A DNA stretch of 64,000 bases from an uncultured Siphonobacter sp. (GTDB lineage Bacteria; Bacteroidota; Bacteroidia; Cytophagales; Spirosomataceae). The position numbers and the translations under genes are program-made. Under the pieces are notes generated by a model. The model saw only the letters and a list, made by a program, of their open reading frames with translations. It made no database searches and had not been told where the DNA came from. The stretch spans positions 124,001 through 188,000 of the forward strand of contig CAJYHS010000204.1 in assembly GCA_913774715.1 (NCBI GenBank), in the 5' to 3' direction. Within the stretch, counting starts at the first letter, position 1. Each line of letters starts with the position of its first letter. Positions 44,520 to 46,850 of this stretch are shown piece by piece.

Positions 44520-45182
44520 ATGAATTCTTCTAAAACTGCTCTGCTTATTGGTGCTTCAGGTCTGGTTGGGAATTATCTCGTTTTTAAATTACTCCAGTCA
44601 GATCGTTACGCAAAAGTGATCGCCCTCGTTCGACGACCTATGCATTTGAAACATTCTAAACTGGAGGAACGCCTGGTTGATTTCGATCAGCTTACCTCTG
44701 AAGACGTAGCTGGAGCAGATGATGTATTCTGTTGCTTAGGAACAACGATTAAACAGGCAGGGTCCAAAGAAGCCTTTCAGAAAGTGGATTTAATTTATCC
44801 GGTAGAGGTAGGGAAGTTAGCGTTGAAAGCAGGGGCAAAACAATACCTCCTTGTTTCTTCGATCGGAGCCAATGCCGGTTCTTCCATTTTTTATAGTAAA
44901 ACCAAAGGCGAAGTGGAAGCCCAGATTGCCACTTTGGGTTATCCTAGCTATACTATTTTCAGGCCTTCTATGCTATTAGGAAAACGGAAGCAATTCCGCT
45001 TGGGTGAAGAACTAGGTAAAGTATTTGATTTAGTATTATCTCCCGTTACCCTACTCATCTCACCCTTGCGAAAATACAAAGGTATTCAAGCCAGTAAGGT
45101 AGCCTCAGCTATGTTGGGGAGAGCCGGCCAGGAAGCTCCCGGCCAGCATATCCTGGAATCTGATGTCCTACAGAAGTATTAG
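44520..45182 (+). CDS. NAD(P)-binding SDR-like oxidoreductase (HTATIP2-like atypical SDR)
   Basis: 220 residues with a Rossmann fold: LIGASGLVGNYLVFKLL at residues 9-25, VIALVRRP near 35, DDVFCCLGTTIKQAGSKEAF near 63-82, and LLVSSIGANAGSSIFYSKTKGE near 111-132 with the YxxxK pair. This is the pattern of the TIP30/HTATIP2-like atypical short-chain dehydrogenases. Substrate is unknown. It converges on the GlmU-like gene, and their stop codons overlap (TTAG). Divergent from sucD across 261 bp. Confidence 0.85.
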   Translation: MNSSKTALLIGASGLVGNYLVFKLLQSDRYAKVIALVRRPMHLKHSKLEERLVDFDQLTSEDVAGADDVFCCLGTTIKQAGSKEAFQKVDLIYPVEVGKLALKAGAKQYLLVSSIGANAGSSIFYSKTKGEVEAQIATLGYPSYTIFRPSMLLGKRKQFRLGEELGKVFDLVLSPVTLLISPLRKYKGIQASKVASAMLGRAGQEAPGQHILESDVLQKY

Positions 45183-46405
45183 CTCTCTGTAGTAGTTTCA
45201 TCATCGGTATAATGAATGGACTCGGTTTGTTCTAAAGCAAAGATTGTTCGCCAGATGTCTTCTTCAATTTCGGTGAAGAGTTTACCACGACGATCCATCG
45301 TGTTACGAGCTACATCTACTGCTTTCGTAAAACGGTAGGGTTCAAAACCCGTGTCAGCTCCGCCCCAGCTAAAGGAAGGAATGTGTTTCGGTGGGAAGCC
45401 TGCTCCAAAAAGGTTCACGTTTACTCCTACAACCGTTCCGGTATTAAACATGGTAGAAATTCCCGCTTTGGAGTAATCACCCATGAATAAACCTACAAAC
45501 TGACGCCCTGTATCCTCAAGCTGCTTGGTGGTATAGTCGTAAAGCTTGACGTTACCGTAGTCATTTTTCAGATTAGAGTTATTAGTATTCGCTCCAAGGT
45601 TACACCACTCAGCCAGATACGAATTACCTAAGAATCCATCGTGTCCTTTATTGGAGTAACCCATGAGAATACTCATGCTGATCTCGCCTCCCACTTTACA
45701 GTGTGGGCCAATGGTCGTGCTTTTTCGCATCTTTCCCCCCAGATTAATCACCGCTCCTTCCAGAGCAGCAAAAGGACCCTGGATAATTACCCCATCCTGT
45801 ACCTGAACGTCCTTACCCAGATAAATAGGTCCGTTTTCAGCATTCAGAATAGCCGAACGTAACTCTACTCCTTCTTCAATAAAAATTTTAGATTCGTTGT
45901 AGTAAGCCGTAAACCGATCCGTAATAGGCTGACTGGTGCGTCCCTGCGTAATCCGATCAAAATCCGCTGAGATCTGCTCGCCATTATAGGCTACCAGATC
46001 AGGCAAACGTTGAATAACCGTTACTTTATCCCAGTAGTACTGCTTATGAAACGCTGTGTTATCGTGAATCAGTTCTTCAATAGGTAGAGGTTTGGATCGC
46101 ACAGCCAGTAGAATGGGCCCCTGCAATAAGGCCTCTCCCATTTCTAGCTCTTCAATGGCCCGAACGAGCCGTTCGTTAGGACAAAGTCCTCCGTGAATGT
46201 ATATAGTATCCGAGCTTTTTTTATAGGGATACTTATTTTGCAAATAAGACTGTGTATAATGCGTAGGTTGTACGCCAAGCCAGTCTGTCCATTTTTCGGT
46301 AATGGTCCGAATGCCTACCCTTAATTCAGCCATGGGCCGGGTGAAAACCAGCGGCAATAAGTGAGGACGAATTTTGGGGCCGTCAAACAGTACATAGTTG
46401 ATCAT
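45179..46405 (-). CDS. GlmU-like nucleotidyltransferase/left-handed beta-helix protein
   Basis: 408 residues from the ATG at 46405; an upstream alternative start gives 12 non-conserved residues. It starts MINYVLFDGPKIRPHLLPL and TRPMAELRVGIRTITEKW, the N-terminus of a Bacteroidota group annotated as GlmU-family sugar nucleotidyltransferases. The canonical GxGTRM motif is missing. The second half holds hexapeptide repeats of a left-handed beta helix (AILNAENGPIYLGKDVQVQDG, IGPHCKVGGEIS, GVNVNLFGAGFPPKHIPSFSWGG). Probably involved in nucleotide-sugar formation for envelope polymers; activity is uncertain. Confidence 0.82.
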   Translation of the reverse strand: MINYVLFDGPKIRPHLLPLVFTRPMAELRVGIRTITEKWTDWLGVQPTHYTQSYLQNKYPYKKSSDTIYIHGGLCPNERLVRAIEELEMGEALLQGPILLAVRSKPLPIEELIHDNTAFHKQYYWDKVTVIQRLPDLVAYNGEQISADFDRITQGRTSQPITDRFTAYYNESKIFIEEGVELRSAILNAENGPIYLGKDVQVQDGVIIQGPFAALEGAVINLGGKMRKSTTIGPHCKVGGEISMSILMGYSNKGHDGFLGNSYLAEWCNLGANTNNSNLKNDYGNVKLYDYTTKQLEDTGRQFVGLFMGDYSKAGISTMFNTGTVVGVNVNLFGAGFPPKHIPSFSWGGADTGFEPYRFTKAVDVARNTMDRRGKLFTEIEEDIWRTIFALEQTESIHYTDDETTTES

Positions 46406-46577: not shown

Positions 46578-46609
46578 TTGAATGATTGATTGGTTTACGT
46601 TTACATTTG
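46578..46609 (+). promoter_or_regulatory. promoter candidate for the acidic mini-gene
   Basis: TTG at 46578-46580, a 21-base spacer, and TACATTTG at 46602-46609, an exact Bacteroidota-type promoter. The small gene starts 24 bases further on. Confidence 0.6.
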
Positions 46610-46633
46610 AGTGTAATCTAACACCTAAAACTT

Positions 46634-46795
46634 ATGAGAATACCTGAAGATGATTTCGAGTTTTTTGATGAACCCATGGACGAAAGCGGAGATACCATGG
46701 ATCCTGCCGAAGAGATGGACGAATTTACAGCGGAACAGGACTACGAAGATGAAGATACCGATGACTTTGAAGAAGAAGAGCTAGACGATATGTAA
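46634..46795 (+). CDS. highly acidic 53-residue protein, unknown
   Basis: A short plus-strand frame from ATG 46634 to TAA 46793-46795. It begins MRIPEDDFEFFDEPMDESGD and ends FEEEELDDM. By my count 29 of 53 residues are Asp or Glu and one is Arg, with no Lys, so the predicted charge is strongly negative. No signal peptide or membrane segment is seen. It has its own promoter match upstream and a strong terminator 20 bases downstream, which makes it more than a chance frame. It could be a DNA-mimic, ion-binding or disordered regulator, but nothing in the sequence chooses between these. Confidence 0.65.
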   Translation: MRIPEDDFEFFDEPMDESGDTMDPAEEMDEFTAEQDYEDEDTDDFEEEELDDM

Positions 46796-46814
46796 TCTTA
46801 AAATTTCTCCCATA

Positions 46815-46850
46815 AAAAAGGCACTTATCCCTTCGGATAAGTGCCTTTTT
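46815..46850. terminator. bidirectional terminator between the acidic mini-gene and icd
   Basis: 16-base perfect arms (46815-46830 and 46835-46850) with a CTTC loop, A5 and T5 flanks. It serves the small plus-strand gene and the convergent icd gene. Confidence 0.92.

Follow-up and report, generated by a model that had tools for sequence, protein, structure and literature searches.

What kind of gene is a free-standing frame of 53 codons, lying between glmU and icd in an uncultured Siphonobacter, whose product is acidic over more than half its length? The window, by which we mean the whole 64,000-nucleotide stretch of DNA analysed here, contains such a frame, for which the original prediction had named two kinds of function: DNA mimics and anti-restriction proteins on the one hand, and disordered cation-binding proteins on the other. 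Here we show that positions 46634-46795 are a genuine gene with promoter-like and terminator-like elements of its own, a fixed core position and a record of purifying selection, and that its product is a new orphan family. For the role of this product we put forward a tentative reading, a disordered microprotein that would bind a basic host partner through two short motifs, and weigh it against the alternatives as the evidence on each is presented.

An acidic gene between glmU and icd

The product of the frame, MRIPEDDFEFFDEPMDESGDTMDPAEEMDEFTAEQDYEDEDTDDFEEEELDDM, has 14 Asp and 14 Glu among its 53 residues (28/53, 53%), one Arg and no Lys, which gives a computed charge of about -27 at pH 7. 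A scan of 293,777 bases of the contig (window included) gave 924 ATG-initiated ORFs of 30-150 aa, of which none but this one reaches 35% Asp/Glu. The runner-up in the ∼294 kb scanned, a 63-aa ORF on the minus strand (L071 4422-4613), has 33% Asp/Glu and is also rich in Lys. The gene has 42.6% G+C, the window 43.8% and the intergenic stretch upstream 32%. The free-standing acidic mini-gene of the original prediction, with a promoter match of the form TTG-N21-TACATTTG on one side and a terminator hairpin on the other, is thus borne out (Table 1).

Table 1. Features of the acidic gene and its surroundings, in window coordinates
Feature	Position	Strand	Basis and remarks
Alternative bacterial GlmU, divergent neighbour	45179-46405	-	TIGR03991 (NCBIfam E 2.3e-121, above cut-off), PF13562
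TTG, -33-like promoter element (N21 to the -7 box)	46578-46580	+	Sequence; motif according to an excerpt of PMC2483708
TACATTTG, -7 promoter box (consensus TAnnTTTG)	46602-46609	+	24 bases to ATG
TAAAA, RBS-like motif, 3 bases before ATG	46626-46630	+	Sequence; in 3/6 genomes
Acidic microprotein gene, 53 aa, ATG to TAA (stop included)	46634-46795	+	ORF list; 6/6 genus genomes
Motif 1, codons 23-33, DPAEEMDEFTA (DPAEE..EF.A)	46700-46732	+	Alignment; sole predicted helix, residues 24-33
Motif 2, codons 43-52, DDFEEEELDD (DDFEEE.LDD), acidic C-terminal	46760-46789	+	Alignments
Terminator hairpin between the acidic gene and convergent icd	46815-46850	.	-23.8 (+) / -24.7 (-) kcal/mol; z -9.5 / -7.4
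icd, NADP isocitrate dehydrogenase (IDH), convergent	46868 to about 48097	opposite to acidic gene	NF006156

The gene was compared across six Siphonobacter genomes, namely that of the window and five others (G001 to G005). In all six, glmU lies divergently ∼200-230 bases away. Directly after the acidic gene comes icd in five of the six (in the window with ffh beyond it), and in G005 the distance to icd is 8.3 kb. The ∼8 kb in between (L069 4550-12660) carries a 7TMR-DISM sensor gene, a TonB-dependent receptor/SusD pair and a GH30 hydrolase, and is likely a polysaccharide-use locus. The glmU match of G002 (L012 1501-2301) consists of two overlapping pieces, one of them with internal stops, and ftsZ is split likewise in that genome (L096, L098); both splits are possibly sequencing errors of that assembly.

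On the downstream side of glmU, a DNA polymerase III delta'-like gene was recognised by eye in at least 11 of 24 loci from outside the genus (and confirmed with Pfam in both of the two tried), and Siphonobacter has a gene for an NAD-binding protein there instead (window 44520-46405 region). The acidic gene occupies the upstream side of glmU, where neighbours, again judged by eye, differ between genera. A modulator of the adjacent alternative GlmU, or of cell-wall precursor supply, would account for the divergent pairing in all six genomes, but adjacency in six related genomes is weak evidence and GlmU occurs in 54 of the 59 genomes searched, the acidic gene in only six, and we regard this role as unlikely. 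An antitoxin of a toxin-antitoxin pair finds no support, as the neighbours are the divergent glmU and the convergent icd and no co-directional toxin gene is adjacent.

Conservation and selection within Siphonobacter

The acidic frame is open and kept in all six genomes. Identity to the window protein is 92-96% in the four closer genomes, and in G005, where the gene lies at L069 12743-12922, it is 43% over the alignment and 47% over the local match. Substitutions fall mostly at third codon positions, with counts at positions 1/2/3 of 1/0/14 between the window and G003, 2/2/13 against G002 and 2/2/19 against G001. Estimates of dN/dS are accordingly low, at 0.015 (window-G003), 0.029 (window-G002), 0.033 (G002-G003) and 0 (G001-G004), these being the four of the ten close-genome pairs for which the ratio could be computed, as dS was saturated in the other six and G005 was left out. 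When the same substitutions were placed at random, none of 5000 placements gave as few amino-acid changes, in each of the six pairs tested. In three genomes, identity in the coding region (86-91%) exceeds that in the upstream intergenic region (69-81%). The two marks of a protein-coding gene that we looked for, a kept frame and a synonymous bias, are thus both found, the bias as measured among five genomes. The original prediction had staked the gene on just such a bias among relatives that keep the locus.

An RNA-level element with an incidental reading frame, or coding in a different frame or on the opposite strand, is very hard to reconcile with these data and we consider it highly improbable. 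The unit is compact (∼270 bases), the +1 frame is partly open and basic, and the antisense frames are long, the last for compositional reasons. The third-position bias (14/15, 13/17 and 19/23 differences) nevertheless follows the acidic frame, and the window copy has no Rfam match. Because icd is convergent, moreover, an RNA element would have nothing downstream to lead into. The other frames and the opposite strand were rejected as the gene, since the relatives read have another codon in place of the ATG of the window's 44-aa +1 ORF, and stops interrupt the antisense frames in several relatives.

Toward G005 the picture changes, with identity to the window copy of 80% for GlmU and 91% for IDH but only 43% for the acidic protein. 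The protein is near-frozen among the five close genomes, yet diverges fast toward G005 with free exchange of Asp and Glu.

Transcription signals

Promoters were compared with the Bacteroidota-type consensus TAnnTTTG/TTTG, with a TTG-type upstream element, as given in the excerpt of PMC2483708, which also places TAAAA 2-12 bases from the start in Flavobacterium johnsoniae. A TAnnTTTG box stands 24-34 bases before the ATG in all six genus members, as TACATTTG, TACGTTTG or TATCTTTG, with both sequence and place varying, and a TTG at a spacing of 17-23 bases from the -7 box is found in three of the six. In shuffled versions of the 60 upstream bases a box arises by chance in 5.7% (window) and 3.5% (G005) of cases, so that a single box is weak evidence taken alone; we infer, however, that a chance origin of the separately placed boxes in the window, G001 and G005 lineages together is unlikely. 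A scan of the window with an E. coli-type promoter consensus returned two sites against 1.3 expected, none above chance.

None of 200 shuffles of the plus strand gave as good a hairpin as that at 46815-46850, which could serve both strands. A simple terminator scanner reported no terminator, and our guess is that it missed the hairpin because the T-run is itself paired. Hairpins also occur 3' of the other five copies (z -4.6, -2.5, -3.5, -5.3 and -4.6). The weakest is that of G002 (z -2.5), matched by 3 of 200 shuffles, compared with 0/200 for each of the other four, and the hairpin of G005 is of unrelated sequence with a poor T-tract.

Distribution outside the genus

Profile searches recovered the protein from Siphonobacter alone. 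Within the family, 6 of 222 genomes matched at E 2.3e-20 or better, all of them Siphonobacter, and none of the 216 others held a credible homologue. A sample of the order gave two of 390 genomes, both Siphonobacter, together with four weak matches that were rejected, and a sample of the phylum gave one of 395, the genome of the window itself (the family, order and phylum samples overlap). A search of genome contigs, in which records very near the window were possibly left out, returned three loci, again all Siphonobacter. With a query this short and low-complexity filtering, distant homologues may be missed by these searches. The relatives across Cytophagales with the same gene order that the original prediction had proposed looking for are thus confined, in the family and order searches, to Siphonobacter.

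Six weak family matches (E 0.16-0.74) were rejected as homologues, each falling within an open frame whose length is between 602 and 1013 aa. Of the four weak matches in the order (E 0.022-0.076), one is a frame with two stops and three come from genomes of a single genus, where the open frame is 124-129 aa long; in two of these three (L083, L084) the match is to a 121-aa protein, which we take to be SUI1/eIF1-like. The neighbourhood was also inspected directly. None of the 24 glmU loci recovered from 48 non-genus genomes with a GlmU match contains an ATG ORF of 25-149 aa above 28% Asp/Glu, with one of these loci (L019) spanning just ∼90 bases upstream. None of 16 non-genus icd loci contains a similar ORF, and one (L068) carries an unrelated Ala/Glu-rich ORF. 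A neighbourhood peculiar to the genus would be consistent with de novo birth of the gene, with its acquisition, or with its loss in other lineages.

Searches of family and sequence libraries were equally silent, in agreement with the original statement that the protein belongs to no known family. In Pfam none of five members matched a family even at E values as high as 10, and NCBIfam and Rfam (both with the window only), PHROGs, PADLOC and PDB sequences gave no credible match to the gene or its product, the sole PDB sequence match, a xylanase at E 3.6, being taken as chance. In the titles and abstract openings of the matches listed for Bacteroidetes acidic small proteins, DNA mimics, Siphonobacter and de novo genes, the acidic gene does not appear.

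A DNA-mimic protein of the Ocr or ArdA kind, blocking restriction enzymes or other defences, had been suggested on the strength of acidity and small size, and ArdA proteins about one third of full length are reported in the excerpt of PMC12548430. PHROGs, PADLOC, Pfam and NCBIfam offer no match to support this suggestion, however, and the predicted structure has no confident rigid fold. The protein has no relative among plasmids, phages or viral contigs, although low-complexity filtering may hide some, and its position beside glmU is fixed in six of six genomes; this combination of a fixed core position and no mobile relatives speaks against the suggestion and makes an anti-restriction role quite unlikely.

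Asp/Glu exchange and conserved motifs

At the third base of GAN codons, transitions are silent and transversions exchange Asp and Glu, so that the two outcomes can be counted at the same sites. Among the five close genomes there is at most one swap in any pair, against up to nine silent changes. In two disjoint pairs, picked without a tree, the ratio of swaps to silent changes was 0:9 (window-G003) and 1:7 (G002-G001), compared with 24:20 and 57:24 at fourfold sites of icd, a significant shortage of transversions (Fisher p 0.002 each, 3e-6 pooled). Acidic linkers used as controls in the same two pairs gave 2:6 and 1:8 for RecQ and 1:5 and 0:5 for FtsZ (all six rows), the latter on a poor alignment in which the G005 row is partial. 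Scarcity of Asp/Glu swaps as a special mark of the acidic gene is therefore not supported, since the RecQ and FtsZ linkers, too, rarely swap the two residues over short times.

Over the longer distance between the window and G005, swaps and silent changes stand at 10:7 in the acidic gene, 62:37 at icd fourfold sites and 1:18 in icd acidic codons. Asp and Glu are exchanged at 10 of the 24 acidic positions shared by the two proteins, and the G005 protein remains acidic (56% Asp/Glu). Because 10:7 is near the fourfold ratio of icd, Asp and Glu are interchangeable in most of the protein over longer time, which favours a role that would depend on charge for most of the chain.

The exchanges are not spread evenly. 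Nine of the ten fall outside two short motifs (alignment read by eye). In motif 1, D23, P24, A25, E26, E27, E30, F31 and A33 are invariant even in the divergent G005, and in motif 2 the invariant residues are D44, F45, E46, E47, E48, L50, D51 and D52, residue 43 being Glu in G001 and G004.

These patterns bear on a serious rival to our preferred reading, in which a disordered polyanion acts by bulk charge, whether by binding cations (Ca2+, Mg2+, Fe) or polyamines or by protecting other proteins. Such a role is only slightly less probable than the reading we prefer. It would accommodate a chain that is 53% Asp/Glu without Lys and predicted to be mostly coil, as well as the retention of acidity toward G005 despite the swaps. 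It sits less easily with the persistence of two motifs whose aromatic, Pro and Leu positions are fixed, or with the overall scarcity of changes among the five close genomes, although a similar scarcity of Asp/Glu exchange in the RecQ and FtsZ linkers tempers the last point.

Predicted structure and proposed role

AlphaFold2, supplied with only four close and near-identical sequences, returned a model with mean pLDDT 61.3 and pTM 0.22, consisting of the one helix over motif 1 and coil elsewhere. DPAEE is a usual helix-start pattern. The model is weak, but its mostly coil character agrees with the composition of the protein. The disorder in the earlier suggestion of a disordered cation-binding protein fits this model, and cation binding itself becomes one part of the bulk-charge alternative.

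The reading we prefer, tentatively, is that this acidic microprotein is disordered and would use the two motifs to bind a basic partner in the host, perhaps one that binds nucleic acids, its flanks being generically acidic. The protein would reside in the cytosol, no signal peptide being apparent by eye, and on its own would be largely disordered. It would attach to a conserved host protein at a surface of positive charge, where motif 1 may form, or settle as, a helix, and where both motifs would confer specificity, anchored by F31, F45 and L50. The acidic stretches between the motifs, where Asp and Glu can replace each other over longer time, would contribute long-range attraction only. The likeliest partners would be nucleic-acid-binding proteins such as RNA polymerase, ribosomal or nucleoid proteins, and the protein may compete with a nucleic-acid site or chaperone it, which would make it a small housekeeping regulator and not a mobile-element weapon.

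Several lines of evidence point to this reading of a motif-driven binder: the frame, promoter box and downstream hairpin found in six of six genomes beside a constant glmU neighbour, the low dN/dS with its rarity of amino-acid changes relative to random placement, the persistence of the motifs in G005 as the rest of the protein drifts, and the predicted helix over motif 1. Free Asp/Glu exchange between the window and G005 and the poor structure model count against it. Whatever the role, the locus offers a clean, testable case of a gene that is restricted to one lineage, forms its own transcription unit and encodes a product that is more than half acid and yet keeps two short motifs. If a partner comes to light, it would reveal how specificity arises in a very short acidic chain in a bacterium.

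Comparison with known systems

Ocr of phage T7, an acidic folded dimer of about 117 residues, acts as a DNA mimic against restriction enzymes and RNA polymerase, inhibiting both. A mimic of this folded type would carry its charges at phosphate-like spacing on a stable fold, and the low-confidence model of the Siphonobacter protein predicts no stable fold. ArdA and sArdA proteins resemble the Siphonobacter protein in being small and acidic, and chromosomal sArdA genes exist according to the excerpt of PMC12548430. The latter differs from them in having no Pfam, NCBIfam or PADLOC match and no confident fold, and no mobile element was seen at its locus. The ArdA family PF07275 gave no match in five members or in the window's own genome, where the genome search was also silent in its 14 control genomes. 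Carriage on mobile elements is usual but not universal for ArdA; the acidic gene instead lies beside glmU throughout the genus. Motif-driven disordered microproteins, as presented in the excerpt of PMC13276856, are alike in their shortness, disorder, short conserved motifs and disorder-to-order binding, although the examples given there are non-bacterial and have no homology to the Siphonobacter protein.

The nearest described behaviour is that of Gp44 from phage SPO1, and the likeness that we draw is one of mode and not of descent. Residues 56-122 of Gp44 are 57% Asp/Glu, free of basic residues and disordered, and in the excerpt of PMC8208478 this part is proposed to be a flexible mimic of single-stranded DNA, with RNA polymerase beta/beta' contact seen in two-hybrid assays. 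The Siphonobacter protein is similarly acidic and almost free of basic residues. Gp44 is a phage protein of 27 kDa in which a folded DNA-binding domain and a C-terminal part flank the acidic stretch, whereas the Siphonobacter protein is free-standing, 53 residues long and chromosomal. A bolder version of the comparison, to which we attach little probability, would have the gene encode an endogenous, free-standing protein that flexibly mimics single-stranded nucleic acid. The gene would have arisen de novo in Siphonobacter, within the genus-specific glmU neighbourhood, and have since become fixed because its product regulates core machinery that binds nucleic acids, for example RNA polymerase. 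Identification of a partner would show whether flexible nucleic-acid mimicry, described for the phage protein, is also self-directed in cells.
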